This document shows positions 1-21,849 of a stretch of 21,849 nt of DNA, in pieces. The position numbers and the translations under genes were made by a program. Each line of letters opens with the position of its first letter. Position 1 is the stretch's first letter. This DNA comes from Punctularia strigosozonata HHB-11173 SS5. Lineage: Eukaryota; Basidiomycota; Agaricomycetes; Corticiales; Punctulariaceae. The notes below the pieces were generated by a model. That model was not told where the DNA came from and made no database searches. It saw only the letters and a program-made list of their open reading frames with translations. The stretch spans positions 437,025-458,873 of the forward strand of contig NW_006767434.1 in the NCBI RefSeq assembly GCF_000264995.1, read 5' to 3'.

Positions 1-420
1 AAGCAATTGTGGTACATGTCATGCGCACGGTAAAACATTTGTCTCCCTATTGAGTATCAAAACAATCAGAAACACGTCAGTATGTGCCTACCTCCGGGCA
101 ACCCGGACGGTCGACGATGTCAGTGATGACAATTTCTCTATGTTCATGAACTCGAGTACGAGATAAGCAGGAGATCTAGAGCTGGTGAGAACTGAAAGGG
201 ATGAGCAGAGGGAACAGAGACACTGGGTCGAGATCTGGATGACGGTTACGAGAACATACGGATGACGTGCGACGAGTCGGACAAGTGAGGCTGTAAGGGC
301 GCCACTTGACCTGCAGCTGAACAACCACTGAGAAATTCAGTACATCGCCGGAAACTGCTTGACGATGACGAGCGAGCCTTGGACGCCGCCAGCCGTATCC
401 ACGCATGTACCGAGCCAATG
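1..420 (+). repeat. Left terminal inverted repeat
   Basis: The reverse complement of this segment matches 21418-21836 base for base except for one extra A in the run near position 32-35. Pairing is exact up to base 420 (paired with 21418) and stops abruptly at 421. Open frames of 60-80 codons here also occur in the other copy, which is expected from duplicated non-coding DNA. The repeat may continue to the left of the window. Confidence 0.96.
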
Positions 421-1323
421 ATATTGTACAGCAATTACAGCCTATCAGTGGTCAGGGAACGTCACATGACACCACTCAAAGCTCTGCGTCTTGCTTAGCT
501 CTGTTCTTCAGACAATTGACCACTTCGCGAGCATCCGGCTACGATCGCCCCAGAAGTTCTGGCGCCATGCGAGACTGGTATGTCCAGAGTACATCACCGG
601 CGCCTTAAATTCAATCGCTTCAGTGTACACGGCGGCAGTGATGCTGTATATACGAACCCACGTATCTTACTACCACTTCGGCACATGAATAGAATCACCG
701 GATTCAACCACTGGAATGGAAGGTGCGTCCATTTTCCTCTAGTTGATGATGTGGCTGATAAGGCATGCTCCCATGTGAGACAGAGGGGTGGTATACTGCG
801 CCGCAGGACCAAATCGCTGGGACTGGAGGTACCCGGGTGGCGCAGCGGGATGGTGATAGAGCAGCACGTTCTGTGGTACGCCCCTGTTTTCAACCACGCA
901 GACGACATTGACCTCACCGTAGGACAAAGTTGCCGGGGCTGCTGGTACAGTGTCGCAGCGGGACTGTAGGGGTGCGAAGCCGGTGGGAGCAGCTCGTTCG
1001 GTGGCATGGCCCTGTTTTCAACCGCGGACACTGCCCTAATCCCAGCGTAGGGCGAAGTCGCTGGCACTGTAGCTCCAGTGCACCCCGTCAGGTGGTACGA
1101 CTCTGTTTGCGGCGGAGAAGGCGAAGGTTGTAGCAGTACTATGCCCGACACATCTTCTCGACTGAGCGGGACACATAACATTTTCTGTGCTACGTGAAGA
1201 TTTTCCATGTAAATTTACGGACTTCTAAGTAATTCCGATTCTCTCATCATACGATACGGGGCACGTATAATTGGTATCGACACATAACTAACAATTTGAG
1301 TGATCAATCATGTCTGTTGCCAC
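421..1323. other. Left subterminal region without a clear gene
   Basis: This region lies between the left terminal repeat and the 3' end of the transposase gene. A minus-strand open frame at 594-1208 spans it, but its product is low-complexity, matches no family I know, and lies on a tandem repeat, so I do not call it a gene. The recognisable content is the imperfect direct repeat at about 841-1075. Confidence 0.6.
841..1075. repeat. Subterminal imperfect direct repeat, two units of about 113-122 bp
   Basis: CGCAGCGGGA occurs at 841 and again at 954. Downstream of each, a CCTGTTTTCAACC block (883 and 1011), a CGTAGG block and a TGGCACTG/TGGTACAGTG block recur in the same order with substitutions and small indels. 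The position just inside the terminal repeat resembles subterminal repeats that transposases bind in other large DNA transposons; a binding role is inference. Confidence 0.6.
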
Positions 1324-4300
1324 TCACGGTGTAGAAAACATCTTCCTGTTGCGGGTAGCCTGCTCAATGAGTGTAAGCATGGCGAGATTGCAGCAGGAGA
1401 TACTCGTACCATCTGCAAATTGCACTGTTCTGTCCCTGGCTTGATACGATAAACGCAGGGGCGATGGCATATCCGAAGTTTTCTGCCCCTGGGCCCAACG
1501 AGCGTCCGGAATGCCGCGCGTGGGTGTCGAAGGTGAATACGGGGATCGAGCGTCCGGAATGCCGCGCATGGGTGTCGAAGGTGAATACGGGGATCGAGCG
1601 TCCGGGATACTTCGCGTGGGTGTCGAAGGTGACCACGGGGATTGCGATGATGCTCTAGATGGGCCCGAAGTCAGAGACGGAGTCGACGGCATAAACGGCC
1701 ACAACGCGTCAACGGGGATGTCAGGCGCGTTAAGATGCAAAGATTCCATCGTTTCGAACATCGCTACAACGTTCTCGTCCGCGTCCGATGTATCCTCCAG
1801 ATAAACGACCTGTCCATCGTCGTCTTCGAAGTCATCTGGATCGTCCGAGTCGAAGTGCAGGTTCGTATCCAACTGTATAGTGCTGCCCGGAATAGGATCA
1901 GTACCGATGGACGCGCGCAGTTCGTGCTGAATCCCTTGCGCCATCTGTTCATCCGTGGGTCCCCAGGAAGAATCCCAGTCGCGAACCCCCTTGAAATCCC
2001 CTACGCGGCGCCGCCAGGTAACGGCAAGCCGGAGGAGTTTGTCTTGACGTAGTTGAAGCTGGTTGCGAAGCCCTGGCTCCCTTGCTGCAAACATATAAGT
2101 TACGGTAATGGCTATACAGAAGAGGCACGCACCGTGGCGTGCGATCGCGTCTGCAGTTGCAGCCCATTCATCCTGAAGCCATTCCTGCAGCGTCGTTCTC
2201 TCCTTCCTCAAGCGTGCGAGCTCTTCATTGCATCGGTCAATCTCAAGCATAGCTCGTATCCCTTTGCGCACCGCATCATCTGCGAACCATCGCGGGTATG
2301 CTTCCTCACCGAGGTCTTCGTCCATCAATCCGGTGTCATGCCATATGGGATCGTCAACATCAAGGTTCCAGAGACTCTTGACGTCGATGGGAGTTGGAGC
2401 CTGGGCGCCTGGCGGTGCAGCTCCTCGTTTGATGAGATCAGACATCTCTATACAAAGCGTGTTATAACGCCGCGCCAGTGCTTGTATGCCGGGTTCCCGT
2501 TGTTGTATCGCGTTCGTTGCATGTGCGCCTAGCTTGCGCTCTGTAAAATACCAGTAAGACGATCAATACAGTTCTCATAAGGGAATACTTGCGAGAGGAC
2601 TGAGATGCATGAGTGCGAGATACGCGGTCGACTCGCGAAAACTCGAATTTGCGCTGACGCAATCGATCGCGGATCCGAGTCTTCAGAGCCAAGGCATTCA
2701 CGCGATTGTTGAGATATTGGTTCCCGCGTAGACGGTCTACTTTTGAACGAGTTTGAATATCCAGTTTGGCCCGATACTTCTTCGCACTCAATTGTGTTCG
2801 TGCAAGACGATCTTCGACTTCAGTGAGTTGCATACGTGTCTCGTCAGTGGACTCTCCAGCCAATATGGACGTCTCAAGCTGCTTCATTTGCTTTTCGAGG
2901 ATTCGGATGATCTGCTCGAGATTGAGGATGTGATCAATATCTTTGTCAGCTGCATTCTGTCGCTGGCCTGTCGCTGAATGAGTACCTCATGCTGGATACG
3001 CGTAACCATTGACGTACGTTCTAAGGGTTTTGTCTGAGATGCTTGCTGCGCATCCCATTCGCACCGTAGTGCCTCGATGCCGACGTTACACCGCGTGAGC
3101 TCCTCTTGAGCTGCCGCCAGTCGCTCTTGGCAAGTAGTGAATTTCTTCGCAAGCCAATCCGCGAGCGATAGACGGTGCACTGAGTCTAAATGATGGATTT
3201 GGGAATCGAGAATATAGAGCCGTTGATGATACTACAGAGTTGTCAGTCACAAAGTATCACACATATGATACCTTGAAGCTCACACCACAGACTCTGAGTA
3301 CGGCGACGAGGTGGGCGATCAAGCTCCAGAAGCGTTCACAACTTTCGCCGTCCGTGAAGCCAAAACCGACGCATTTGCGGGGATGATAGATAACTTGACA
3401 GGGCCACTGATGACCGTATGCGTGGAAGACGGAGATTCCAAAACGGATACGCTCGCGATACTCGGGCAGAAAACCCCACTTGTAGCAGCTTCTGTGGAGC
3501 TGACAACCGATGTCGTAAAGGACGCCCACAGTCCACGTTACGGGCAGGTTTTGAAATAGCTTCTTAAGAAGTGCGAGCGGGTAATGTTGGCGTTCTCCGG
3601 GGGTCGACATGTTGGCCAGCCACAGTACGCGATCATGACGGCACATTAACGCCATCAAACCGGTGTCGTCGAAGAATTGAGTGCTTGCCTTCTCCCGCTC
3701 CTCGTCGGCGGCTTTGAACGATGACTCGCACCCATCGAGCACAGAATTTGGTACCCGTAGGGGGCCTTCACACTCGTCGATAGCGGATTCCGGCTCCGCA
3801 AATTCTCGGTTTTTTCGCTTGCTCGGAGATGACGTCAAACTGGTAGACTTGCTGGATGCTTGTGACTGACGATTATCACTGCGACGCGTCTTCTGTCGTC
3901 GATAGTCGACCTCCGCCTCCATACTCTGCACTTCCTCTTCCGAGAGAAACACTGACGAAGGATGCATCTTGACCGGATCTCGCCTTTCCCCCCGTTCGGC
4001 TCGTCGGGTGGAGGGAATCCCTGATCCCTCTGTTGCATTGGTACGCACACGCTCAGCACATCTCTTTTGTGAGAAGCACGCGTCAAGGCAGACAACCACA
4101 TCGACGCTGAACGGATGTTAGCCTCTATGATCTCACAGGAGCTCGAGCGAAACAGCTTACGGCATTGATGAGTCGTGTCCATCTCTCCCCGCAAAGCACA
4201 AAATGCACCTGGATCGAAGATACGAGCTGGGACGCGTGCTCTCGTCGACATGACTGCCATTTGAGTTAATAGGGCCAGAGGCCGTTTCTTTTGAGGGACA

Positions 4301-5703
4301 CTTGTCCTCAAAGCTGATATGGGGAAGGTCCGCGGTCTGAGCCCCGCCATCTGGAGCCGCCGTGGGATGTAATCTCAAATGGCGGAGAGGCTGCGTATCG
4401 ATTCCGGGTTGTCGATTCATGGCGCTGGATTGCGCGTCCGGAGCTCGCGTGGATTGCGCGTCTGGAGCTTCAGTGGCATAGGAAGCAGGAGCGGGTCCTC
4501 CAAAGACAGTATCATATACGGGAAAGGCCGTGCCATTACTGGTTGTAGAGGTCGTATCCGTTGAGCGGCTGGGGGTGGGATTAAGACCAATGGCAGCGTT
4601 TGGGACTCGCTCAAGCGCCTCATGCAACGTAGGAACCCTCGAATAGGTATCTACTGACGAGTAAGCTCTCAGACACCCTGCATGTGTTTAGGCCTTACCG
4701 CCAACATGCTCGTCTTCGCGCTGTTTCAGCGCTTCCTGCCGAGATACTTCTAGTGTTTGGTCGATCTTCTTGCTCACGCAATCCACGAGATAATTATACC
4801 AACGTAGGGCATTGCCAAATCGTCGTCGAATGGAGTCCTAATGCGTGGTTTGTCAACACAAGCCGTCCCCAACGGACGCGATCGCGTACTTACCCGTGTC
4901 GTCAATTTGTAGGCCCTGATGCCAAGGAACGTTTCCAGCGTGGTGGCCCATGCTGTCACGTTTGGCGCCGTATGCAGGAACAGTGTCGATACCAGTTCAA
5001 GCATATTGAGATCGAAAGCAAGGGATGGCACCTGGGGTGCACTCGGAAACAATCCAATACTCATCAGCCGCTGAGCAGCGGAAATGCATGAGCATGTCGT
5101 GAGATTTAGGTATTCGAGGTCTGGAAGCTGCGTTAGGAATGCAAATTGACTGGCGCAAGGTAACTCACGATCTGTATATACGGCGGTAATCTGCATATCT
5201 TTACTTGCACCTCTGCAGGTGCAGACGAGAGGCAATGGTGTGTCGAGTCTCAGGTTCGCGGTTGCGGCGAGATAATCCATACACAAGTTGATCAACTCGG
5301 GGACTGTGACATTCTTCCACCGCGCCCACTGATTGAGCTTCTTTCGGGCATACCGTTCCTTATAGTTTTTTGGCGGAACGTGGTCGCCGTCGACCGGAAG
5401 TACGAGAGGAGAGGGAAATGGGTCGGGATCGTCAAGACCCGAAGGAGGATCATTGCTAATAGCGGGGTCACCATCGTCGATAGCCGACCGTCGTCCCCTC
5501 GTATGTGCGGTAGGGAGTTGAGTCAAAGTCCTTCCTCCGGGAAAAACCATGAAAGGCGCCGCTTGCGACTCCTTGCGTGAGGACCAAGAAGGGAGTGATC
5601 CTTGTGTGGAAATGGTAGGCCCATCGTGCACGGGGTTTGGGCCGCGCAATGGCCGGTCATTGGACCTAAGAACACTCTTCGGTATTCTCCTCTTCTTGCC
5701 CAT
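1324..5703 (-). CDS. KDZ-family transposase with N-terminal CxC cysteine cluster
   Basis: Predicted to catalyse cut-and-paste movement of the element. Exon model (minus): 5703-4894, 4837-4699, 4653-4161, 4106-3284, 3231-3018, 2967-2624, 2538-2133, 2084-1324, giving about 1,329 aa. Introns are 45-56 nt except one of 85 nt. The ATG at 5703 opens a basic start (MGKKRRIPKS). A CxC pair at residues 161/163 and a second at 204/206 form the CxC cluster; a CxxC is at 466/469. The RNase H-like core shows VVCLDACF (D489), LYDIGCQ (D679) and DGESCERFW (E735), the likely D-D-E residues; DDTGLMALMCRHD lies between. A long charged helical region follows (LKTRIRDRLRQRKFEF), then LDVDDPIWHD and an acidic tail with a 16-residue tandem repeat. 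Length and motif order fit the fungal family. The exon 6/7 junction is uncertain: the best-looking 48-nt intron (2541-2588) breaks frame. Confidence 0.9.
1500..1643 (-). repeat. In-frame 48-bp minisatellite, three units, in transposase tail
   Basis: Units start at 1500, 1548 and 1596, a period of exactly 48 bp. Each codes for 16 residues of the pattern SPYSPSTPTRGIPDAR with few changes. The period is a multiple of three, so copy-number change does not disturb the reading frame. The proline/serine-rich product is probably disordered. Confidence 0.9.
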
Positions 5704-6983
5704 TACACGACAACGTAGAGCGCGGCCTGAGGGCGGTCGACAAAGGTGTATTCACACGAACAGGTAGATGTGAATGCGCCAATGATACTCGAAGGCCAAG
5801 GACGGGACTTCGAATTGTCGTTATCGTCCTTGCATGAGCAGGCAGACATGTGACCGGACCGAAACATCATCTCAATGGGCGCATCATGGCGGAGGTCCGA
5901 GAACTGAGCCAGATCACGCAGACCAGGTGGACAATTGCGCTTATTTGGGAATCAGGCGTATATCTTAATACTGGAGAAGTATCATCCACGCGATCTGGAA
6001 ACCGACATGTCGTGAGCTCTCAGTCTCGGTTGGGAGGGTGAAAGTCACACTGTTACCGAGTACAATCCAGTATCCCAGGGAACGCGTAGACATCAAACAA
6101 GATTTGCTTAAGGTATTCCTCCATCAGCCCATGCGGAGCAAAATTTTGTTAGCCAGTCAGCCGCGACGGCAGGATCCGTTGCCAGAATTGGGCGCATTGA
6201 TGGTGTGGCACTCTAAGTCAGGTGGGTCCGCTCATGGTTACCCACAAGCGCCGGCTTTGCGCACCCTATTTCCCGACGTCAAAACATCGCTTCAATTAGT
6301 AGATTAGAAGAGATCAACGAGAACAGGTGAATCACCTAATATTACCCCATCAGATGGAGAATCACGCTTGTTCTGAGGACCTGGTGAAGATCTCCATCGT
6401 GATGAAATGTCGTCCAAACGGACGGTAAACCGCGCACCGTCGCATGAGCTCTCGATCTCTGTGAGAAATATTAACTCTGAGCCGGGAACTGATCGCCGCC
6501 CCGACTTCCGCATGAACATCGACACTCCTGTTCCAGTGCCCAGTGAGATCTCGATAACGCATACATCAATCAAGATTGCTTGAGGTATGCTCTCTCTGGT
6601 CCATCTGGTGCGTACGCAGGGACAAATAACTCCGACAACGTAGCCTGAAATCACAACAATGTTAGCGTTCCCTATATCTCATCCAGCGAACTCTCTGTAG
6701 TTAAAACTCATCTTGAGGGTATAGACTTGGGGCAGCAATCTAGGATACATATACGGAGACTAGTACCAGCTTGACAGGTGCCTCGCTTCGCGTTGCCTCC
6801 TTGTCGGGAGCAGCACGTGATGAGGACTGCCACCCTGCACGTGTTCCTCCTTCAAGCTTGACCCATCAACGGCAGTCCATTCGACTACAGCAGCTATGCA
6901 AACACGGAGCATCCAAGCTCTGCTCTACCACGACCGCATGCCAAACTTAGATGATAGGTTCCCGAACCACGTCGATTTCTCAG

Positions 6984-7540
6984 GACGAGCAACGATACGC
7001 ACTGCTAGAGGTGATACCTGGATCTACGGACGAAATTAAGGGAGCGCGCGGTAACCCTCTATGGCGCAGTCAATCGTCGGGAGACCCGTTGCCCCCCCCG
7101 CTTGAGGCCCGCCGCCTTGGGACACATCCGCAACGTGAGCCGACAACGGGTTGACGAGCAACGATACGCACCGTGCCGCACCCGATCTAGAGGTGATACC
7201 TGGATCTACGGACGAAGTTAAGGGAGCGCGCGGTAACCCTCTACTGTGCATCCACCCTGGCGCAGTCAATCGTCGGGAGACCCGTTGCCCCCCCCGCTTG
7301 AGGCCCGCCGCCCTGGGACACATCCGCAACGTGAGCCAACAACGGGTTGACGAGCAACGATACGCACCATGCTGCACCCGATCTAGAGGTGATACCTGGA
7401 TCTACGGACGAAGCGAAGGGAGCGCGCAGTAACCCTCTATGGCGCAGCCGATCGTCGGGAGACCCTAGATTTCATGTTGTGCGGGCTTGGCCGCCCGCGC
7501 CGCCCTGGGACACACCCTGAACGCGAGCCGACAACGGGTT
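6984..7540. repeat. Minisatellite, three units of about 169-196 bp
   Basis: Units begin with GACGAGCAACGATACGCAC at 6984, 7153 and 7349. Each carries CTAGAGGTGATACCTGGATC, then GGGAGCGCGC, a GGGAGACCC block, GGGACACA and an ACAACGGGTT ending. Units 1 and 2 share a run of eight Cs; unit 3 has a different sequence in that place. Unit 1 lacks a short block before CTAGAG, and unit 2 has a short insertion after CCCTCTA. GC-rich blocks interrupt open frames and no coding role is apparent. Confidence 0.92.
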
Positions 7541-7752
7541 TGGAACGGCCCACGAGATTGATCTCTGTCCATCTCACCTGCTTCTGATGGAAAGAATCTC
7601 GCTGAGGTATGATCTCCCGGGCATATTTGCACATATTTGAGATGAAGACCTGACTTAGCCGAAAGGCACAAACTCCGCAGGAAAGATGCGGAAAGACAAC
7701 TTGATTTGACGGTGACGTGATTCGGAAACATCCGTCGAAGGCTCGACTCGTG

Positions 7753-7760
7753 CATAAAAG
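7753..7760 (+). promoter_or_regulatory. Possible TATA box of the viroplasmin-domain gene
   Basis: CATAAAAG, followed by GCGGGGC, sits about 130 bp upstream of the proposed ATG at 7886 on the same strand. It resembles a fungal TATA element by sequence and spacing only. Confidence 0.35.
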
Positions 7761-7885
7761 GCGGGGCTCGTCTTGCTTCCAAGGGCACGTCTCCTTCGTC
7801 TTGAGTACTCGTAGTACGTCTGACAATCACTCTCCCCATACACAACATAACTCATGTCTTCCCCTCTTCCAAACGTTAGCTACCC

Positions 7886-8654
7886 ATGGCCCAAGAGACG
7901 ACGCAGACGCATAACAACGGTGTTCGTAGCCATGTTTCGACTTGTACTTGCGCTAACGTTTCCTCGACGTAGAGCTCCATGCCCGCAGACGGCGCGACCG
8001 ACTATGCCCGGAAGGAGCAGGCGTTTGCGCAGTTGATGAGCGCGGCGCACTACTTGTGCTTCGGTAGTGAGTCTATCACACATGAAGTACTTCGTTTGCT
8101 TGTTTACTAAGCTATTTCCTTCAGTTCCCTTGAACATCCACTTTGCCGATGAACACGTCCCATTGTATCACACTCAGAACGACGTCTTCTACACGCGCGC
8201 TCGCCCCTCCGAGGTGCCTTCGGGCACTTCGGGCACTGACGCTCCCGAGGACCGCAAGGGCCATGCCGATATGCCCGACTCTGCCGCGGATGCGGAGACG
8301 GCGGCGGAGGCTCCCACGGCCGCGCATGGCATTGCTCCTGCCACCCTCATTTCTGCTGTCGCTTCTAATGGGGCCTCCACTAGCGGCTCTGTCAGTGACG
8401 GCTCGTTAGACATGTCTTGGTATGTTGTGACTCGCGGATACGATACTGGCGTCTTCGATTCCCTGTGAGTCTGGGCTCGTCTCTGTGAAGCGTCGTTCTG
8501 AAGGTATTTGCGAAGCGCTCTTGCACAGTCGTTGACGTTCAAATGTCCCGGTCAGAACTACAAGAAGTTCAAATCGGAGGTAGCTGCACGCGAGTACTAC
8601 GAGGATTCCTGTGCTCGTGGCGTTGTCTCTGCTGTCCCTCGTATTCATGTGTAG
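7886..8654 (+). CDS. Small protein with RNase H1 N-terminal/viroplasmin-like domain
   Basis: Exon model: 7886-7921, 7973-8066, 8125-8464, 8516-8654, giving 202 aa. The first two introns have good branch sites (GCTAACG, TACTAAG). Residues 1-45 are unrecognised; a Ser/Ala/Pro-rich linker covers about 70-138; the C-terminus (about 141-190) reads WYVVTRGYDTGVFDSL, then PGQNYKKFKSEVAAREYY. This fits the RNase H1 N-terminal (Cauli_VI/viroplasmin-like) fold, known to bind RNA-DNA hybrids or double-stranded RNA in other proteins. No RNase H catalytic domain follows, so it would bind rather than cut nucleic acid. Many mushroom proteins carry this domain alone. The start at 7886 is chosen because its 51-nt intron keeps frame; an ATG at 7979 is possible. 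The last acceptor (GCGAAG) is chosen because it restores usual domain length. Confidence 0.7.
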
Positions 8655-9019
8655 TCAGTAGATATACTGTGATCACTCTGCGGCGGGGAATCATGATTAT
8701 GCGCCGTTGACCCGCCGTCCTTCGTTTGAGAACGTGCCGCTATGTTGATTGCTGTTTGGTTGTCGTTGGTTATTTTTCTGCACGCAAGGCACACAATGCG
8801 GCACGATACGGAATCATTATTCCCATGCTAGCCTGTTTGGGAGAGTGGGAGCACGACTCGCATGACGAGCACGCGCTCTCCTCACCTTGACTCCCCCCAG
8901 CGTGATACTGACCAGGCGCGAGCTCAATAACGTCCAAATAAAATACCTCGTCCCTCTGTAGGTTGCGCAGTATATGAGTGAACGGTGTGGGCGACTGAAT
9001 CATTTACCTACAGTACTTC
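8655..9019. other. Spacer between two plus-strand genes
   Basis: No gene is recognised here. A minus-strand open frame (8770-9003) codes for an unrecognised Ser/Cys-rich peptide without supporting splice or start context. AT-rich blocks near 8934-8944 (CAAATAAAATAC) and near 8970 (AGTATATGAG) could belong to the promoter of the ORF starting at 9020. Confidence 0.4.
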
Positions 9020-9403
9020 ATGACAGCCCATTCACCGGAGATGGAGACGGAGACGCAGCCGCAGGCTTCGAGCCCAGACAATCATCCCAGGCGGCATAAA
9101 GTCTGTGTAGCGGCCGAGCCCCTTCGTGCTCGTGAGTGTATACAAAGGTTCAATGATGAGATCATGAATCAATCCTATCTCACAGGAACATGCAGTCGAT
9201 GCGAACTACTGGATGCGGAGAAGGCTTCACTCCTTGAGGTTCTTGTCGAGCTCAACACCCTGCGCGCGGAAATCGAGCTGCTGCGGTACAGCAACATGCT
9301 CATCAAGCAGGAGCTCATCCAGCGGCACCCCAGCAAGTCGTTCTTGAAGGATCACCTAGAGCAACTTCGGGATCTAGCGACTCACATCGAAGACTCGTAT
9401 TAG
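9020..9403 (+). CDS. Short coiled-coil protein, unrecognised family
   Basis: A 127-residue open frame starts at the ATG at 9020. The first 40 residues are Ser/Pro/Gln-rich. A CSRC pair lies near residue 59, followed by a leucine-rich heptad-like stretch from about 65 to 120 (for example LLEVLVELNTLRAEIELL), which predicts a coiled coil. No known family is recognised. The TAG stop is followed, nine codons after the last sense codon region, by a splice-donor-like TACAG|GTGAGC. A decayed second copy of this 3' end at about 9826-9890 has CGG where the stop stands. The original gene may therefore have read on into a further exon, making this ORF a truncated survivor. It could also be non-coding. 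Confidence 0.4.
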   Translation: MTAHSPEMETETQPQASSPDNHPRRHKVCVAAEPLRARECIQRFNDEIMNQSYLTGTCSRCELLDAEKASLLEVLVELNTLRAEIELLRYSNMLIKQELIQRHPSKSFLKDHLEQLRDLATHIEDSY

Positions 9404-10135: not shown

Positions 10136-11269
10136 CTGACGTTGGCCGCTATGCAACTACATACCGAGATAATAAAAGGCGGGAAGACTTACCTACCCCA
10201 CAAGGATTTTTTAAGCATCACCAGTCCGATGTTGCGTTAACGACAAAGGATTTGACATGCAGTCAACCTCGTGAGCTCTACATTTCTGTATGCACGAGCA
10301 GGTACCATTCAAAGTAATCGGGCTGTGCTCCCATGATTCTTCAGAGCATATTCGATGCATTGCGCAATCCATGCTCACCTTGTATTACCCTCGATTTTCT
10401 GGACAATCATCTGTCAGTAGAAATCGATACGACTTGCAAAGAATCTAGCAGGACGTAGGTACGAGGAACGAGCTGAAGTGCGCGAGTGTGTTTGACTGGG
10501 ACCATGAAAGCATAACAAAATCAGCTCGCCACTCTGCTTGCGAATATCTATCTCGAGAACAGTCAGATACCGCTTATGTGAATACCCTGTGCTTGTACAA
10601 TCCTCGGAGGATGTTCAAGCATTCTACAACTGGATGTTCACACACCGTGATCCGTGAGTCTCCGTACGATATGTTCTCGGATAGAATTTATGCGAGTATG
10701 GTTGGAGTCAGCCGGAGCAGAGGCAGTAAAACGCGGGGAATGTGCTAGATTGCATGAATGTACTTCACCGGGGCCATTACACTGCATGTGCCGATCGACT
10801 GTTCCTCCGCTCCTTAAAAACCATCGTTCTCCAGAAGAATTTTGGGCATTGCAATGCACAGTATATCATCGGTATCAGATCGAAATCAAATGAAGTTACA
10901 TGAGCGCCGCGATAGCGGGTTGTAATGCGCAGGATGAGAGATTAAGTTTGTGTCGCCGGGGCTGTGTCCATATTGGCGCCCACACTTACTCTGATCCCCG
11001 ACATCGGTGGCCTCAGCTCCTTTGTTAGAAAACGTGCTGCAACGGAAAACGAACCACTCATACATGGACGGGATTGCAGGAGAATGCTAGTATGAAGCCT
11101 CAATTCAAACGACGCATGCCCGATCGTGCGTTCCTCGACATCGTCTATCTTCGTGCGGAAACGCTTACATGGAGCATTGTGCGTGTTTAGAAACATTTTT
11201 TCGAAATGTAATATATTATGTATAGCGGGCATAATCTATGTCTAATCTCCACTCCTCTTCTATCTGCAT
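10136..11269. other. Region without an assignable gene
   Basis: No complete gene is recognised. On the plus strand near 10570-10665 a frame reads RLCEYPVLVQSSEDVQAFYN and continues WMFTHRDP before a stop that overlaps a GTGAGT donor-like site, so it may be an exon of a decayed gene; I could not extend it convincingly on either side. The minus-strand frame at 10942-11232 follows the stop of the downstream paralog and has no recognised family. Confidence 0.4.
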
Positions 11270-12376
11270 TCAGGTGTCCTGGTCGCAAAATCCGCCATTG
11301 CGCCATTTTCCACAGAGATAACGGAACGTGCTTGCAAGTTGCTGTGAGCACAATGTTAGTGGTGCTACGCAAGAGGATTGCAGGCTCGCTTACATTCCAG
11401 TAGCTTAGATCTTCGAATAGGTGATCCGACAGTCCCCCGTTCGCGAAGACGTGGCATAAATACTCACGAGCACCCATTCCGCGCAACTCGTGTAGGCGCT
11501 CGTAGTTCATAATATGGGAAGCGATTGATAGCGTTGCCCCTTTGCGTAGGTGTTGCTCTGGCTTTTCCAGCCAAAGCCGAACCTCTTCCGCCTGAAATAA
11601 GAAGCATTCGTTATACTGCCACGGGTAGCTGTACGCAGGCTCGCACCTCAATGCCGCGAACGTCCCAGAAGAAGATGAACGGATTTGCCACCTCCCAAGT
11701 ATGCCCAGGACTCGGATCGTTCCCGCTTGCGGGCATGAAGCGAGCACGGTCATCCGTAGTGGGTCGCTTGAAGAGCATATCCATCGAGGGAACTGTATTT
11801 TCGTCTAGGTTAGCGTCTTCTCCGCTCCATTTCTTGTACAGCTCCTGAAATCTCTCTACGACGGGCTGTGCATGTCAAAAATGATGCAACTCATGTCATC
11901 TCGTTGGGGAAAGCGCACCTCCATATCTCCCTCGAAGCCGACACCGAATCCGACACTTGCCAAAAGATATTCGAGGTAAGTTTGTGGTGACGTTCCGAAC
12001 ATTCTACGCTCGCGATGGCAAAACACTAGATGCTGCGTCAAGACCGTGCTTCGCTCATATTGGTTACCACATCGATCCTCATGGGTGAGCAACGAAATGA
12101 AAATGCTGGTCTGTTCAATGTGAGTTGAAGAGCTTATGAGATTGAGGTGGTGTTTACCTCAACCCTTCTCAGACGTCGTTGGAAGCGCAATCTCAACGAC
12201 AAGACTTCGGGAGCAGGATATATGTCAGGACTGTTGGATAGCGCAGTTGGCATGAGACCGTCCCAGGATGAGAAACTGCGGTATGCAGACAAGTCTGCTC
12301 TCGGCGCGATCGAAGACAAACTGACGATGAAACTTTTGCCCCAATGTCTAGCACTATCTCTGCTCCGGCTCCTAAC
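11270..12376 (-). CDS. Unassigned protein, paralog of the 13114-14616 gene (5' end unresolved)
   Basis: Exon model (minus): (12376 or less)-12158, 12110-11919, 11865-11647, 11591-11394, 11341-11270, about 299 residues without a clear first ATG. Introns are 47-55 nt and all in phase 0. Visible motifs in order: QHLVFCHRERRMF, VVERFQELYKKWS, NPFIFFWDVR, HIMNYERLHELRG, and a short C-terminus ending GGFCDQDT. Each has a counterpart at the same place in the neighbour gene, and all four introns fall at equivalent junctions. I do not recognise the family and see no catalytic motif, signal peptide or membrane segment. The 5' frame is open back to a stop at 12377-12379, so at least one upstream exon is missing from the model. 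Its C-terminus is about 50 residues shorter than that of its paralog. Confidence 0.55.
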
Positions 12377-13113
12377 TCATAAATGGAAACTGGCTATCAC
12401 ACCGACTGAATTGCGCCTGCCTCGCATTCCAGTACAGGAGCTTGTGCCGCAATTCGATCACACGTAGGTAGGCAACATCTCCATCTCGTTGAGTAGACCT
12501 GCTGATGGATCACAACAAAGCTCGCGACGAACACGTCTAGCACATCTCTCCCGGAACTTCCGTGGCGTGCTTCCATGCTTTCCGACTCCCTGATGGCAGC
12601 TGGCTAACGGATCAACCGGATTGCGCCCGCCTAAGGTCCTAGCACAGGAGCTCGTGGCGCAACTCGATCGCTCGAAGGTAGGTGATTCTTCCCTCTTGCA
12701 GTCGCAAGCACGGTGATGGAACACCGATGCAGCCCGAAACGATCACAGATAACACATTATCCAATCGCAATTTTGGAGGAGGAGTGCATCCACGCCGACC
12801 GAGTGTCGGACGACGGCTTGACATAGCACCACGCGGAGCGCAGTCGCCTCACATCATTGTCGTGCCTCAAGATGATCGGTGGACCTCCAATGAAGTTTAC
12901 GAGGTACGCCGGCGGCGTGATACTCCGGACTCAGAGCATGCTAACGGTTTGCAACATCACCGCGGATGTGTTTCTCTTCATTTCTGCCAGAAATTGTTTA
13001 TACAAATCCAGCGCGACTGAACGCTACATTCTAGTGTTCGATCGGAACGAAAGGACAAGCTGATGGATAGTGTTGCACACATCATACTCATAAACATTAG
13101 ATCTACTTCCTAA
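12354..13113. other. Interval between the two paralogs
   Basis: The 5' exons of the downstream paralog probably lie here, but I cannot place them. A local direct repeat (12405-12480 and 12612-12690) is the only clear structure. Minus-strand frames across it read like exon pieces (LRVIELRHKLLYW in one unit, LRAIELRHELLC in the other). Plus-strand frames at 12682-13063 are unrecognised. Confidence 0.4.
12405..12690. repeat. Direct repeat of about 75 bp, two diverged units 204 bp apart
   Basis: On the plus strand ATTGCGCC(T/C)GCCT, ACAGGAGCT, CGCAA(T/C)TCGATC and GGTAGG recur in the same order, the first unit near 12410-12473 and the second near 12618-12680. Read on the minus strand both units give a similar peptide, YLR(V/A)IELRH(K/E)LL, so an exon may have been duplicated. 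The second unit has an in-frame stop soon after. Confidence 0.75.
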
Positions 13114-14616
13114 TCAAGCGACCCCGATGTCCACAAGCGCCTCAGTCTTCAACGCGTCATCAACGTCTTCATCGAGAGGTGAGCTTTCTGTTCCCCAGTA
13201 CAACGGACCTTCACCGTTACCTCGGCGATCCCACAGCGAGTGGAGATCGACATGCGACGGCAGGGATATGCGATCGGTAACCGAGGGCGGTGCCTCAGTG
13301 GCGCTCACTACGATTCCCGACCATCGTTCATAAAGCTTGATGAAGCTCCGCAGGAAACGCTGGTGTGGTATGTAAGGTACAACTCACGCTTTTGATAAAT
13401 TGGTGCACCTTGTTGCTCATTGGTCCATGGCTAGGCATGGGCACCTCTCCAAGCCAGAGTACACGTTGAACGTACATGTAAGCGGTAACTCCGCACGCGA
13501 AATGCAGACGATGGAAATTCCCCATGTGGTAGTCCACGATAGGTTCACATTCGAAGACGGTTAACGGAGTTAGGCTCCGTACGGCGACCGCTAACTGCTG
13601 GGCCTTATCTCGCGTGAACAACAGACCCGAAGAATACGATGTGGAGGGTTCACCTCTTCGCGTCGGCTCCGCCACTCCAAGAACCACGGGTTTCCTACCA
13701 GGGGATCGTATGGTTCGTGAACGTCCGCCGAAGACGTTTCCTCCATCAATCGGTTAACGTCGGAGCCATGCAGCGGCGATAGCTCATCTCGAACCACTGG
13801 GTGAGGCGATACGTCCAGATCGAGTGCGTCATTCGACCAGACGTCGTACAATGTCCTGAAAATTTTCCAAATCGTCTATCGCCAGAGATCAGCCCTCGTC
13901 ATCGACGAAATGCAGCGTGATCGCACTTACTGCCTCATCCACACCACGCCATAGATGAACTCCGCCAGGGACGAATACAGAATGAAGATAATTCTCAAGT
14001 GGTAAGGCAAATAACCGTCGTTCATGATGATAGTAGCCAAGATGCTGACGAACGACGGGACAGACACGATCTATGTCGATGGTATCGCTGTCCTGTAAAG
14101 CGCTGGCCAATATACCGAATGCTAAAGCATGCGCCTGTGTACGTGAGCAGCATAAAGTATGAGTACGAAAGATTGTCTCACCTTAACACTTCGTACATGT
14201 AAAAGATCGTGAAGTTGGTCCATGCGATGTCGGCGTGTAGCCGGCCGGACTTGCAAGTTACGAATGCGGTCGTCCATGCGTGCACAGCCAATTACAACGG
14301 GCGATACAGCTGAAACTTGAGGTGAGCCGAGCTGCGGGACCTCGCCGATTTTGAGGTCAACCCAAATATTGGATTTCAGTTGACGAGAAAGAGGCATCAA
14401 AGTTGGTACGTTTAAGCGCCGTATCATATCAATGTTTGATAAGATCCCACAGATCAGATTAGCGTCCGATGGGATCTTCCTCATGCTCAGCTTGAGAAGC
14501 ATGGCGCCCGTGTGACTGTTCGGCGGTGGCGTGTGCATGATGGGCTCGTTGGTAAGTTTGAATGACACATGCGCGAGTTCCGCTCGGGAATGACAACTTA
14601 TACCGACGGAAAGCAC
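13114..14616 (-). CDS. Unassigned protein, paralog of the 11270-12376 gene
   Basis: Exon model (minus): 14616-14182, 14134-13931, 13875-13654, 13597-13388, 13335-13114, about 430 residues, all introns phase 0 and 47-56 nt. Motifs in order: VVRQHLGYYHHERRLF, TIWKIFRTLYDVWS, NPWFLEWRSR, HMGNFHRLHFACG and SLYERWSG, then an acidic tail. These align with the downstream gene, including the four intron positions, so the pair arose by duplication of an intron-containing gene. The family is not recognised. The frame at 14616 opens with GTG, not ATG; the first in-frame ATG is near MHTPPPNSHTG, so either that is the start or an upstream exon exists. A frame-keeping acceptor (GCGATAG) was chosen for exon 3 over a nearer AG that gives a stop. 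Confidence 0.6.
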
Positions 14617-15051
14617 ACTGTGACTTCGTCTTCCTCACATACCGGGAGTTCAAGGTTCGTCTGCGACCATTGTGGATTCCCCATTAGGCCCTCACACCGA
14701 CCCGACCTGCAGTTATAGATCGCAACGCATCCATCAGAAGCATTCACTAGCGACGATGCATGTTAGTGGATTCCCCGCTTTGTGTACTGTTTCATAATCT
14801 GGGTTGTAGACCAGAAGCGTAGTGACCAACCCTGCTCATGATGTTATAGAAGATGCTGTGAGTGTACTTGTGTGATCCGTTCCATGTTGCTTACACATGC
14901 ATACCAGCGAGGAGGCGAGGACGCGGAAGCGCAGCCGCCAGGACGCCGCAGTGGATTGAGGGTAGGATATCTTTTCCTTTCTCGCGGGCAAACATCTGTT
15001 AATGTTGCCGGTATATAGCCCCGAGCGAATCGTACAGTCGCTGAATCTGCG
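14617..15051. promoter_or_regulatory. Divergent intergenic region
   Basis: This about 430-bp gap separates the minus-strand paralog from the plus-strand giant gene and probably holds both promoters. Splice-like signals on the plus strand (donor GTGAGT at 14858, acceptor ACCAG ending at 14907) and a basic open stretch after them suggest a 5' untranslated or coding leader exon of the giant gene. GGTATATAGCC near 15010-15020 resembles a TATA box, about 35 bp above the ATG at 15052. Confidence 0.4.
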
Positions 15052-18000
15052 ATGCTCGTTTCGCCGTCGAAGTCTCGCCTGAGGAGGACCAGGGTATGTT
15101 GTCTTTGCCATATTCTGAGCGGAAGCAAGCTCACGGGACACGCCACAGCCTTTAGACGATACGGGTGAGCAAACCCGTGCCCAGGCCCCAAAGAAGGCAC
15201 ACTCTACCTCCTCGCGTGCACCAGTTCGAGTAAGCCTGTTCCGAAGAACGGATTGAGCCTCCGGCTGATCATACGCAACAGAAGACTGCTAAGGGCGCTT
15301 CGAAGGACGTCGCAATTGATAAGGAACCTGATGTTACTGGATCGACTGGCAGAGAGTGGTCGCCCGTGCATGAGTTGCCGATCACCGATTCAAACGGCGA
15401 AAATCCGCGGTCTTCCCCTGCATTGGTACGCTGGTCAGCGATATAAGTCTAACATCCGGTTACTGATGTCTTGCCTTCAGCCGGAGCAGGACTTTCACAG
15501 CGGTGACATCGGATCCACCGAGCAGCACCCCTTGCTCGACATTCCTCCTGGCGTCAAGTCCCCTCCCATCGTCAATTCCAGCATCTACGCACAGTATCCG
15601 CCTACCAGTCCTATCATGGCCGCGACTGCCCTCGGCCCGGACTGTCAGCCGATCCAGCCGCTACACTTTCTCTCGTCTTCCGCTGCTGCTGCGGTGATAG
15701 CGGACTCTGGTCTCCTTGCAACAATTAATGCGAGGGTCATTGATGGGACGTTCAACGCGGGCAATCCAAACGTCACGTCAATTGGAGGTCAGACATCGGC
15801 CAATGACGAAGACAATGATCCTATTAGCGGCAACGATCCTCGTAGGCGCCAGCCTACTGAATTCAATATAGAGCCTGTCCGCAGCGATGATGCCGGCGAT
15901 GTGGAGCCTGATCGTGTGGTAGACGACACCGCCGGGGGTGACGGCCGGGCCAAACAGGGTTCTGCAGGATCTGGCGAAGACGAAGACTATGATATGCTCT
16001 CGACGAACAATAATGAGGAGGTGGGAGAAGATCGCGGTAGGGAGCAATCTGGTAACGGATTAGACGCACCCCCGAGCGAAGACAAGGGAAGGGAGGACGA
16101 GGCCGAGGAGGGAGACAAAGAAGATGAGGAGGGAGACAGAGAGGACGAGGAGGAAGATGAGGAAGACGAGGAGGAGGAAGATGACGAGGACGAGGACGAG
16201 GAGGACGAGGAAGTGGACCGAGATGCCGCCAACAAGTACGAATCTCACATCGGCGGCGAGGACGACGCGGAGCGCACGATGGACGAATCTGAGGAAGAGG
16301 AGGCGGAGCCGATTGGAGATGTAGAGGATGCACAAGATGATGACGACAAAAACTCGGATCAAGGAGAAGATGCCACCGGCTCAGTCACATCAGCACGGCG
16401 GACCTCGGGGCGTACGCGACGTCCATCCTGGAAGATGAACCAGCTTATGCAGGACAGCGATGAAGATCCACCATCTAGCGATGATTTCGTGCTGGCAGAC
16501 CCAGATACTCACTCCGACACCGCTCGTCGTAAGGAAACGACCATCGAGGAGCAGGACGACGAGGACGACATGGAACTCGAGCAGGAGGTGGTGGATTCTG
16601 ATCAGGATCGGCGCAAAAGGAAGGTCAAGCGCAAAATCACCCAACCCCCGCACCGTAAAGGTAGGATTCTGAATATATTGTAACTATAACCAACTTGCGC
16701 ATCGTTCTCTAGGATCACACAGCAATGATACATCCTCAAAATCCGCACCTGGCGAATTGAAGTCGACAAAATCCTCTGAGACAAAGACGCCCAAGCGCAA
16801 AGCTTCCGCTGTCGGATATGGTATGATGGTGTAATCTTTCTTCGTTGCCGGATCATTGACATCTTCTTCAGAAACACTGTCGGAGCCATCAGCCGAAGAC
16901 CTTGCCAAAGCTCGCACTCGTCGCGACCATGCTAGAGAACGAAGCAAGGCTGGCGTCACGACGACCACGTCGGATTCCAGCAGCAACAATGATGAAGGCG
17001 AGTTAATGATTGTCACATGAATGAGCGCCGGACTCAAGACGTCCAGATTCTTATTTCCATGGTATTGAGGATCAACTTGCGATGGATGATGACGCCATGG
17101 ATGTCGATACACCAACGGTTAAGGCTCCGTTGAAGGGCGGGGCTACCGTCAAGATGAATCGGCCGAAAGGTAACTTATATAATTTCTATCACGAGTTCGC
17201 TCACGCGCTGATATCTTCGCCAGGTCGTTCCGCAGGGGACGCAAAGCGCACTGCATGCGCCAAGATCAATGACAAGTCGCATGCAGCCTCAGCGCGGAAG
17301 GCGGATATGGAGCGTACGTTGCACGGCCTACACTATTGTTTCGGCATGTTTATCTATGATTAGCCCCCGCTGGTTCGTCATCGGATGAAGCCATCACAAT
17401 CGATCCTGCAGCAGGAGGCATGGACAAATCCCAAGCGAAAGCCAGTATACCTCGACGCAAAGGTATGGCGACGCATCTCACTGAGGGGTGACATGTACTG
17501 ACCTATATTGTAGCCGGTGCAAGTAAAGGAGACAGGACAACCATTGCGAGTAATCGAGATACGGCACATGCCCTTTCAAGTGATATAGGAAAGGGGAAAG
17601 CGAAAGGTGTGCGATACTTCATCGATAAATGCAAATGTACTTATCCTCCGTTAGACATGTCAGCGGTATCTACTACGAAGTCGGGAGCGAAAATCTCGAA
17701 GCCGCAACCAACTGGTGCGACTATTTTCTTGTTGCTTCACAGCTGTGTATTGATATCTTGATAAGGTCAAGGTCAGAGCCGTGATAGAGAAGGCCGAGCC
17801 GAGATATGCGACAAATGGAAGGGGAAGGCCATAGGTCAGAAGACGTTGCAACAGCATTGCTGTACATGATACTAATTTAATCTCAGACCCAGACTCCAAA
17901 CCGAAGCCAGGCCCGCTGAGCAAGAAGCATCAAGCTATGATTGAGGCTGAAATCGAGCGGATCGATGAGTTCATCAACGAGATAGCGAAAGCAGCGGACA

Positions 18001-21000
18001 AACCGGTCGCGGTTATTGCAGACATGGTGCTAGTGCCAAAAATCTCGCGTCATTGCGAGCTCAACACCTGGTCGAGCTCAACACCTGGTCCTGCTTTGAG
18101 ACGTATCACTCACAAACGCATGGCCGCGGCGACAAAGGTAATACCCATGTCTTCAAGAGTTGATAGTTTATTGATTGCAGTCACAGAGACTGAGCAAGAG
18201 TACGCGCGACGACGGCAGGAGGACTATTACGCGGTTACAAAGGGTATACCGAAGGATGATAAAGCTAAACGCGAGGAGGCGTTCAGGCCGTATATCGACT
18301 GGTACATCGATTACATGGACCTTGCGTCAGAGAAGGCGGCGAAGAAGGGAGGTGCAGAGAAGGACCTTCGACAGGCTGCCTCGGAAATGACGAAGCTAGT
18401 AAGTAATCCCGTCACGTTACTGTCTGCTCCAACTAATCCGCGGACAGGGTCGTCACCTGTTCAAAACAAAAGGATTACATGTCGTCGGATATATCCTCAA
18501 CATTCGTCCCGGTGGCACCGGTCTCATGTTCAGAAACTCGCCGCAAGTAATGCAAATGCAGAAAGAATACGAGACCGATCATTTAGCAAACATCGCTGCG
18601 TATCAAGCGCGCCTCATGTAAGCTGTTCGCGACCTCGTTTAGAATACCTCCTGACAGCTCCTGGTACAGGGGTATTGACCTCACGAATAAGGGCATCACG
18701 ATACCGTCCGTATCCGGCACTCCTTCACAAACCTCTTCCGCGCGCCGTCCCCAGCTTCCTGTACAGAAACCGAACGAGGCTGGTCGTGACTATCGCAATC
18801 GTGTACTTACTGAGTTAATCAAGTGGAAGTTCAGTGAGTGTTTCGTCTGACGCTTTTTCAAGTGATCCCATTGTTAACATAATCCCCTCATACAGAACTG
18901 GCGAATGTGGAGACAGTGAAATACAAACTTTGGGCGGCAATCTTGGAGCTCCTATACACAAATAAATTGCGTATCATCGATATGCATCCTGACTCGAACT
19001 ACACGATTTGCAAGAGCCGAACCATCGAATTCGACCTGAAGGCGCCCGGAAATGGCCCCGTCGTCTCACAGATGATTGCGCCGTGGGTAGAGAACGATCC
19101 CGATGGCATCAAATTTGACATCGTGCCGTGGAGCGAAGGTTGGTCGTTCGCATGACATTTTCTCTCGATCTCCCTGCTTACGTCTACACCGCAGAGGAGT
19201 CAGCATTGCCGTTAGATAAACAGAAAGACGTGCCGCTCATCCTCACATGGCTGCATAACGAGGAAAATGTTGTACCTAACGGGACGAGCATCATCATGTA
19301 TGGCCACTTCAAGCAAGGCGTGAAGTGGCGAGTCTCATCAACGGCACGATACCAACATGACCTTGCAGTCGCGTCCGGGCAGGCCCAAGATGCGACTCCC
19401 GCTGGTGCCAGCGAGAGCGGACAAAAGTGTCGCATCCCCACTTGCAAAGACCCGAGCAACCAACGCTCGACCTCTGCTGCAGGCAGCACGGAGTCCACCC
19501 TGGTCTCCTCGTCTCGCTCAAACACTGCCGCATTAGCCACAAACCCTCGAACATCGTCGGTGGCACCAAACTCGAACTATCGGCAGCCTTCCGTAGCACC
19601 GTATTCTCATCCCAGCGCAGTCGTCCCTCCGTACCAGACCATCGAGACGCACTTAGACGCCGACAACGTAACTGGTTACACCCAAGATTTCGATGATCCG
19701 TGGTTGACGATTGAGGACGACAACGGTCAGATGGCATCGACACAATGGCAGGTATGCTATCTCCGTACTGTCATCATGTCGACCGGCGGACTCACGGTAT
19801 AATTCAGGAGTCCGGAAACGACTACGATCCAAGCAACACGCGCATGAACTCGCCATTCGAACCTGCACCTCCAAGCCCTCGCCGCCCTACTGGCTTCACA
19901 AACCCGGACCAGTATCGTGACTGGCCTCCCGACCCTATTCCAGAGAACATCGATATGTCACGCGCCGTCTTCTCAAGACCGGGAAGCGGCGCATCGCGCC
20001 CGGTCACCACCACGGGAAGATCAGCGGCAAGTCACTATGTCACTCCCTTGCCTGACACTCGAGCGACCCACACACGTGAGCCAACGTACGCAGCTCCCAT
20101 CCCCAACGGCATTTCGTTCCAATCGCGCGAGAGGCAGAACGCGAGATACGGCACGCCCTCGACATATGCCGGTCCCGAAACTGGCCATGCTACTTCACGA
20201 GCGAGCGGCTCAATGGACACGGATGATGGTGCCCCTACCCCGTATGCCGCTCCTGTGATGGACCGGGCTAGTTCCCGCGCAAGTAGCAGAGCAGACGGTA
20301 ACCACGGCAGCTCCATCGTGTATGCCCCTCCCATGCTTGACCGTACCGCGTCTCGTATGAGCACCAGACTGGCCGTCGACGATCGCGGCTCTTTGCCGGA
20401 CCATTCAGCATTCGCTGCCGACGCAGTCTCAACACCCGCACAGGATGCTATCCTTGTTGATCGCCACACAATGTATGCTCAACCTATGGTGCCTCCCACG
20501 TCCGTCCAGTCAACTCGCCAGTATGGACTGGATCGGTCTTCCACGGCTTCCATGAGGACCTTCGAGCCCGACATGTATTTCCAAGATGGACCTCGCGCTC
20601 CAAGCCAATTTGAGGATCGCGACGATTACCACACGTCGAGCTTGAATCTCGAACATGATGTCTATCGCACCGGACGCGCATCTGTCCCTCGCCGTGTGGT
20701 TCCCGCTTTAGGTGCTATACAGGAGGATGAGCCTGATCGCATACAGCAGGGATTCATGAGTCAACGACCGGCGGCTTTGTCGTCTGTTGGTCAGGGTATG
20801 TCTATTCCGCGAGCAGAGACGAAGCCTCTCGCAGGGCCATCGCTTTCCCGACCTCAAATCCGACCAGTCTCCCGTCAGACTCAACCACCCATAGAGGCAC
20901 CGCCTGTCGCAGGGCCATCGCGTTCTCGACCTCAACCCCGACCGATCTCCCGTCAACCTCAACCACCCGTCGAGGCACCGCCTGTCACAGGGCCATCGCG

Positions 21001-21112
21001 TCCTCGACCTCAACCCCGACCGATCTCCCGTCAACCTCAACCACCCGTCGAGGCACCGCCTGTCGCAGGGCCATCACGTCCTCAACCTCAACACGGACCA
21101 GTCGCCCGTTAG
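15052..21112 (+). CDS. Giant second gene of the element, 19 exons, broken by a 17-bp duplication
   Basis: Exons: 15052-15093, 15149-15229, 15282-15425, 15481-16660, 16713-16820, 16872-17001, 17039-17169, 17224-17313, 17364-17462, 17514-17606, 17655-17714, 17766-17834, 17887-18137, 18181-18398, 18448-18617, 18670-18833, 18896-19138, 19195-19751, 19808-21112; about 1,705 aa once the 17-bp duplication is discounted. Residues 1-90 are basic; a strongly acidic Glu/Asp block spans about 280-395; Lys/Ser-rich small exons follow. The most ordered part, about 820-1120, contains LNTWSCFETYH, FRPYIDWYIDYMD, FRNSPQVMQMQ and FDIVPWSEEESALPL. The tail is Pro/Ser/Arg-rich with a 26-residue repeat. From memory, unchecked, this core resembles a large family of agaricomycete hypothetical proteins found near KDZ elements; function unknown. 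A nuclear or DNA-binding accessory role is inference. Intron 6 (37 nt) and the first ATG are uncertain. Confidence 0.75.
16066..16365 (+). other. GAG/GAC-rich microsatellite-like tract coding for an acidic block
   Basis: The purine-rich run of GAG, GAA, GAC and GAT codons encodes an almost uninterrupted Glu/Asp stretch in the giant gene. Mixed codons show it is not a pure triplet repeat, which argues for selection for acidity and not simple slippage alone. Acidic tracts of this kind occur in nucleolar, histone-binding and chromatin proteins. Confidence 0.85.
18056..18089 (+). repeat. Exact 17-bp tandem duplication that shifts the reading frame
   Basis: CGAGCTCAACACCTGGT occupies 18056-18072 and is repeated without change at 18073-18089. 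It lies inside exon 13 of the giant gene. That exon is 251 nt; with one copy it is 234 nt, which keeps the phase-1 entry and exit shared by the neighbouring exons. With two copies the frame is lost before the next exon. No GT-AG pair is placed so that splicing removes one copy. Confidence 0.9.
20831..21112 (+). repeat. In-frame 78-bp minisatellite, about 3.6 units, at the C-terminus of the giant gene
   Basis: Units start at 20831, 20909, 20987 and 21065, with a period of exactly 78 bp. Each codes for 26 residues beginning AGPSRSRPQPRPISRQ. The stop codon TAG at 21110-21112 falls in the last partial unit. Like the transposase tail repeat, it is proline-rich and its period preserves the frame. 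Confidence 0.93.
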
Positions 21113-21417
21113 TCTGCATCATCGTTCCGGATATCTAGTCTGTCGCAAGCTGTGTATCTGCGACCTTGTGTCGGAAACCGGCGGAGTACATTGCACTTGG
21201 AACTCGGGAATGTCCGTGTGTCATAGATTTGTACTTACTCAGCATGCGAATGCGCAGGTTATGAGAATGTGGAATCTGCGAGGAAATCACTTCAGTGAAA
21301 GCATAAGTTCCGTATTCCGAACGAGGCAATACGAAGGATCCGCGACATCTCCAAACGTAAGTAAAGTGGCGCCAAGCGCCACATTCCGACTCCCCTCGGG
21401 GGATCACGTGATCGACA
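21113..21417. other. Right subterminal spacer with palindromes
   Basis: This is the spacer between the stop of the giant gene and the right terminal repeat. It carries three adjacent palindromic motifs next to the repeat: GTGGCG and CGCCAC around a 5-base loop (21366-21382), the CCCC/GGGG stem at about 21392-21401, and GATCACGTGATC (21402-21413). The left inner flank (421 onward) does not show the same cluster. It presumably contains the polyadenylation signals of the giant gene, though none is obvious. Confidence 0.6.
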
Positions 21418-21836
21418 CATTGGCTCGGTACATGCGTGGATACGGCTGGCGGCGTCCAAGGCTCGCTCGTCATCGTCAAGCAGTTTCCGGCGATGTACTG
21501 AATTTCTCAGTGGTTGTTCAGCTGCAGGTCAAGTGGCGCCCTTACAGCCTCACTTGTCCGACTCGTCGCACGTCATCCGTATGTTCTCGTAACCGTCATC
21601 CAGATCTCGACCCAGTGTCTCTGTTCCCTCTGCTCATCCCTTTCAGTTCTCACCAGCTCTAGATCTCCTGCTTATCTCGTACTCGAGTTCATGAACATAG
21701 AGAAATTGTCATCACTGACATCGTCGACCGTCCGGGTTGCCCGGAGGTAGGCACATACTGACGTGTTTCTGATTGTTTTGATACTCAATAGGGAGACAAA
21801 TGTTTACCGTGCGCATGACATGTACCACAATTGCTT
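21418..21836 (-). repeat. Right terminal inverted repeat
   Basis: This is the inverted partner of bases 1-420, with one single-base length difference. The inner edge is sharp at CATTGGCTCGG. The last 13 bases of the window (from 21837) have no partner because the left copy is cut by the window start. Near identity over 420 bp suggests either a recent insertion or gene-conversion-like maintenance. Confidence 0.96.
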
Positions 21837-21849
21837 GATCAAGACGAGC

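Follow-up and report, generated by a model that had tools for sequence, protein, structure and literature searches.

A probable large KDZ-group transposon with a conserved transposase-M-R gene order in Punctularia strigosozonata

In the window analysed here, that is the whole stretch of 21,849 nucleotides from Punctularia strigosozonata HHB-11173 SS5 (bases 437025-458873 of contig C2), a transposase gene of the KDZ group (Kyakuja-Dileera-Zisupton), a region named M and a giant gene named R lie between the two arms of an inverted repeat. The searched genome comprises 33,569,446 bases in 32 contigs, and the gene models of the window were obtained with a simple script and have no RNA support. The transposase gene occupies positions 1325-5703 of the minus strand and points toward the left end. 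Its 7-exon model encodes 1346 amino acids (aa), with a CxC1 cysteine cluster near the N-terminus, the KDZ domain and, as judged by eye, a coiled-coil-like segment followed by a low-complexity tail. On the spliced model the KDZ domain (PF18758) is matched over positions 2-217 of 217 with an E value of 3.4e-62 and 210.4 bits, which places the gene in the KDZ group, while the CxC1 domain reaches 29.3 bits on its exon (cut-off 26.9) and 26.8 bits on the whole model, slightly below the cut-off, and is counted as present. R is found on the plus strand at 15052-21111 and points toward the right end; its 16-exon model encodes 1748 aa. The N-terminal part of the protein is very acidic and is followed by a conserved core, and the tail is repetitive and rich in proline, being encoded by 78-bp tandem repeats at 20824-21109 (plus strand). 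Between them, the M region (11188-14684, minus strand) is modelled with 14 exons and 918 aa, or represents two adjoining genes. The readable part of the left arm covers positions 1-420 and that of the right arm, its reverse complement, positions 21418-21836 (no strand assigned to either). Indeed, 33-420 and 21418-21805 as well as 1-34 and 21803-21836 are 100% complementary and, once joined, make up an inverted repeat whose arms of 420 and 419 bases differ only by one gap of 1 base. Arms as alike as these point to recent movement of the element or to conversion of one arm by the other. A preliminary description of this DNA had reported near-identical inverted repeats, a KDZ transposase facing the left end, a giant second gene facing the right end and accessory genes in the middle, and this layout is borne out in each respect, further genes being present between the transposase and R.

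A genome search for KDZ gave 48 matches; those falling in exons of one gene were combined by hand, which left 29 loci. In a tree of these loci over 133 columns, in which the row L017 stands for part of its domain only, ten loci including the window form one clade on a long branch with a support of 1.000, hereafter KDZ-A, and the 19 others fall outside it. CxC1 is found upstream of the KDZ domain in all ten KDZ-A loci. At the C4 locus (C4:1110179, C4:1116692) the two domains are 6.3 kb apart, whereas the remaining KDZ-A loci have 0.5-1.2 kb between them; the transposase gene on C4 has probably received a later insertion. In the window the KDZ catalytic domain is a stop-free open frame at 3284-4102 (minus strand). 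It was compared across nine of the ten KDZ-A rows, the tenth (L017), split by a frame change, having been dropped, and it retains the invariant residues of the eight other frames, including D12, D202 and E261, which we take to be of the catalytic kind; at five positions it departs from residues that are invariant in the other KDZ-A frames. Compared with the C23 frame over 271 codons, it shows 72% aa identity with proportions of non-silent (pN) and silent (pS) differences of 0.18 and 0.85 (saturated) respectively, and four frame pairs with the window range from 62 to 72% aa identity, with pN from 0.18 to 0.26 and pS from 0.81 to 0.89 (saturated). Given this low pN together with a saturated pS, the transposase has been under constraint, and the saturation of silent differences indicates that the KDZ-A genes are old.

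R was searched for with pieces of the window (3 matches; 22 matches at 6 loci) and then with the R core of a sister element (25 matches at 11 loci). At eight of these loci R is separated from a KDZ-A domain by 9.3-15.6 kb, and the two genes are always divergent: the window, C23, C2 (330 kb), C9 (1681 kb), C6 (719 kb), C9 (208 kb), C8 (488 kb) and C4 (1101 kb). Hence R stands beside 8/10 KDZ-A loci and 0/19 other KDZ loci (Fisher p 1.0e-5), and under random placement the presence of 8 of 11 R loci by KDZ-A would have a p value of 6.5e-14, both values being too small because the elements share descent. A piece of M, M2, has eight matches in the genome, all adjoining R. Six of them share the strand of KDZ and have KDZ-A on one side and R on the other (window, C23, C2, C9, C4 and C8), and the remaining two (C6 at 1658 kb and C22) are about 3 kb from R loci devoid of KDZ. 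A second piece, M1, has three matches (window, C23 and, weakly, C9), with the order KDZ-M1-M2-R each time. The conserved KDZ-A core thus consists of a CxC1-KDZ transposase that faces one end, of M, which lies centrally and is encoded on the transposase strand, and of a giant R directed toward the opposite end. The suggestion that this layout would define an element type is upheld by the divergent pairing at 8 of 11 R loci, with M between the two genes at 6 of the 8. At C22:316488-320255 and C6:1654907-1658934, divergent R and M are found with no KDZ match close by; these may be remnants, or a pair able to exist without the transposase.

With regard to the two proteins themselves, the Pfam search gave no family over the cut-off for R and none for M, which consists of two mutually related halves (26% identity over 168 columns, E 1e-10). 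In the middle of R, an HMG box had been suggested by eye from a helix with N-x-W-x-x-F and two further helices. No HMG domain was found in R by Pfam, nor in PDB at E values up to 10, and the profile of R against four HMG boxes reached an hhalign score of 11.2; when the columns were shuffled 100 times, at least 8 of the shuffles scored higher. R is not counted as an HMG-box protein, and the box is retained as a guess. The conserved core of R in the window carries a 17-bp tandem duplication (18056-18090, plus strand) that breaks the frame relative to the relatives. At this site the W-x-x-F motif continues in 5/5 sister loci read, whereas in the window the frame shifts, and it stays open past the duplication only when the intron seen there in the relatives is retained. 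The window copy is therefore probably damaged in R and, since this frame is broken, probably no longer self-sufficient, which makes the earlier view of an uneroded element with its full cargo doubtful. Iyer et al. (2014, PNAS; cited in PMC7641404) reportedly describe further proteins specified by several KDZ elements, among them one with a divergent HMG domain, and R or M may already be known from among these. No description of R or M was found in the literature searched, which did not include that 2014 founding paper, and we make no claim that R and M are unknown.

Four sister elements are readable at both ends: C23:129790-155720 (25,931 bp, target-site duplication ATGGATG), C6:714492-734915 (20,424 bp, TGGACTT), C9:202600-229741 (27,142 bp, CCTTTAC) and C2:326288-348485 (22,198 bp, ACTGCGC). 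All four, at 20-27 kb, have ends of the form CACCTYRGKCACC and perfect 7-bp target-site duplications (4/4), the individual terminal readings being CACCTCAGTCACC, CACCTTGGTCACC or CACCTCAGGCACC. A fifth KDZ-R pair (C9 at 1691 kb) meets a contig end. The identity between arms is 99-100% in three sisters, and the fourth shows 96% over 81 nt. In the former three an outer repeat block of 422-566 nt is accompanied by an inner block of 308-409 nt, with an unread stretch between the two in at least one arm, and if the blocks are continuous the arms would apparently extend over 1.5-4.1 kb. Within the inner repeat of C23, a unit of about 130 bases recurs as imperfect direct copies (L042:3601-3908, L043:2354-3052); since six-frame translation of this repeat gives a repeated hydrophobic segment, the arm may carry part of a gene.

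The terminal motif CACCTYRGKCACC has 36 exact sites in the genome against 12 for the reversed pattern, and its pairs within 30 kb are inward-facing in seven cases (0.28 expected), outward-facing in none and in the same direction in one. Four of the seven inward pairs are the elements that supplied the motif, which leaves three independent pairs, on C8, C15 and C13. The first two delimit elements for which the genome-wide searches of the readable sequence gave no match to KDZ, CxC1, R or M: C8:188504-207597 (19.1 kb) and C15:420450-436726 (16.3 kb), with perfect 7-bp duplications CCTTAGG and TCCATGG respectively and identical 67-base ends. They are possibly non-autonomous carriers. A single further end of this kind is present on C11 at 219149. 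The C13 pair has no matching duplication and its ends differ, and it was not counted as an element.

Taken together, we estimate at roughly 85% the probability that the window represents the readable body of a single large KDZ-group transposon of the KDZ-A clade, built on the conserved KDZ-M-R core and with its true ends outside the window. Several observations weigh against this reading. Three of the 11 R loci (C22, C6 at 1655 kb and C12) have no KDZ match nearby, and the KDZ-A loci C7:1260110 and C28:16728 have no R match, the latter being close to a contig start. Moreover, the KDZ-R pairs C9:1691169 and C6:729873 are without an M2 match, and beyond the window M1 is matched only in C23 and weakly in C9 (E 0.0955). 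Finally, the ends and the target-site duplication of the window copy fall outside the sequence read, and the functions of M and R as proteins are conjectural. Gene order, terminal repeats, the 7-bp duplications of four sisters and constraint on the transposase are observed, and what the transposase does we infer from its family. As an enzyme of RNase H fold it would act by cut-and-paste, recognising both terminal repeats, excising the element and reinserting it at staggered cuts 7 bp apart. M and R might assist it, for instance by keeping the repeats in contact or by binding DNA, which is a guess.

A stronger version of this role for M and R can be put forward tentatively, the odds being rather against it. 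KDZ-A elements would then be multi-protein transposons, in which the transposase functions only with M and R, these recognising or holding both ends, and in which the fixed divergent order sets one essential gene per end, the C8 and C15 elements being mobilised in trans. If so, loss of either end would disable the element, and both the long near-identical repeats of 1-4 kb and the KDZ-less elements of 16-19 kb bearing the terminal motif and the 7-bp duplication would use the same machinery.

As to the position of the ends, the preliminary description had both of them visible and the element framed by 420-bp repeats, and on this point it finds no support. The 420-bp arms could be complete terminal repeats, with the termini of the element at positions 1 and 21836 or only a few bases away, given that a single gap is the only difference between the arms and that the relatives vary in arm length, one having 81 nt only. 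We consider this unlikely. Indeed, the inverted repeat begins with the first base of the window, and the left arm halts at the window edge with no change in sequence, so that this outer limit shows no end. The motif CACCTYRGKCACC shared by the sister ends was not found in the window arms with up to two mismatches allowed, nor was any exact match present anywhere in the window. Furthermore, the search of the rest of the genome with the window repeat gave only two short fragments: one on C5 (291 bases, 89%, repeat positions 114-404; L007:4001-4291) and one on C7 (86%, repeat positions 1-114 plus 13 outer bases; L008:3988-4113), neither with a KDZ domain reported nearby in the genome KDZ search. 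The two fragments share one break position. Aligned with the right end of the window, the C7 piece covers 126 bases at 87%, reaches the final window base and matches 12 of the 13 bases that lie past the claimed end (21837-21849, no strand assigned). Because the C7 homology covers these 13 bases, the homologous unit exceeds 420 bases, and they are probably still within the terminal repeat. The window arms also occupy positions like those of the inner repeat blocks of the sister elements, and 420 bp is hence taken as a lower limit. Judged from this comparison, the 420-letter repeats probably represent no more than the interior of longer ends that lie beyond the window.

It could also be supposed that the repeat is not the element's own and arose when host DNA flanking an old KDZ insertion was duplicated in inverted orientation, since the ends and the target duplication of the window copy are unseen and two short pieces of the repeat stand alone on C5 and C7. 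This is highly improbable, as sisters with the same gene order bear inverted repeats just outside those genes, ending in 7-bp duplications. The preliminary description had itself held that a repeat running far past the window as a host palindrome would speak against a transposon. In this respect the repeat does seem to continue, as indicated by the C7 homology, but the palindrome of host origin is not favoured for the same reason of the sisters' repeats ending in 7-bp duplications. Its second refuting condition was that other copies of the repeat enclose unrelated DNA; in the genome the C5 and C7 fragments are the sole further copies, neither with a KDZ domain reported in its vicinity. That R and M are host genes found by chance beside KDZ elements, as the three R loci without KDZ, two of them with M, might suggest, is scarcely credible in view of the fixed order and orientation at the eight R loci beside KDZ-A, the absence of R by the other 19 KDZ loci, and the four cases in which R and KDZ are enclosed by one repeat pair and one target duplication.

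Among known systems, Kyakuja elements have 7-bp target-site duplications and 5'-CA..TG-3' termini, and 8-bp duplications are given for Zisupton and for the single named Dileera family (Kojima 2025, PMC12730594). The present elements resemble the Kyakuja of Agaricomycetes in their KDZ transposase, 7-bp duplications and CA..TG termini (PMC12730594), these two terminal features being seen in the sister elements, which end in CACC..GGTG, while the ends of the window copy probably lie outside the window. In contrast, the first two Kyakuja families described are said to lack terminal inverted repeats (TIRs) and to carry a TET/JBP gene (PMC12730594), whereas TIRs are present in the sisters, their readable length ranging from 81 nt to several hundred bases, and no TET/JBP was found in these elements. 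Indeed, TET/JBP gave four matches in the genome, one of them over the cut-off, and none in the readable sequence of the window or of the six delimited elements, which are not counted as TET-carrying. On C9 the terminal motif is found at C9:1677323-1677335 (minus strand), from which an element would extend leftward, and some 10 kb away, at C9:1666690, there is a weak match to TET/JBP (under the cut-off); a neighbouring TET-carrying KDZ element is possibly present in this region (C9:1666690-1677335).

In Cryptococcus neoformans, KDZ1, KDZ2 and KDZ3 have been shown to move; they measure about 9-11 kb, with a CxC1 and KDZ transposase, TIRs of 139-241 bp and duplications of 8 bp for KDZ1 and 4-8 bp for KDZ2 and KDZ3 (PMC12810828). 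CxC1, KDZ and, in the sisters, TIRs are common to both, but the sisters reach 20-27 kb with 7-bp duplications, and the passages on KDZ1-3 make no mention of R or M (PMC12810828). In the KDZ transposons of Pleurotus, CxC2 precedes the transposase (PMC7641404). In Marasmius oreades, a mushroom with KDZ and Plavaka elements, large KDZ elements with TIR motifs have also been described, and its transposable-element library contains elements of up to about 42 kb (PMC8290104, PMC9674265). The KDZ-A elements combine Kyakuja-like ends with TIRs, CxC1, a larger size and an R-M core, and they are likened to Kyakuja by their ends and not by a transposase tree. KDZ elements are described as understudied, although they account for much of the DNA transposon content of mushrooms (PMC8290104), and one of their clades now has a conserved gene set in fixed order, a search-ready terminal motif and exact 7-bp target duplications, by which scattered KDZ genes become whole elements and the helper genes are open to testing.

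Other features of the window are of lesser weight. A search for tRNA and Rfam families and a search of a plasmid record collection with the window both gave zero matches. A small spliced gene at 7886-8654 (plus strand) encodes a ribonuclease H1 N-terminal (Cauli_VI) domain (E 4.2e-08) and is not common to the sister elements. Since its sole match in the genome besides itself is weak (E 0.0098) and lies outside the elements, it looks like a passenger. An open frame of 134 codons follows at 8999-9400 (plus strand), with no family over the cut-off. A 196-bp unit is tandemly arrayed at 7005-7540, between the transposase and the passenger gene. A few kb to the right of the window, on the minus strand, is a P-loop ATPase gene, NPHP3_N/NACHT-like (E 5.9e-21; locus L006 8590-9000, L074), of the type found in fungal NLR-type genes.

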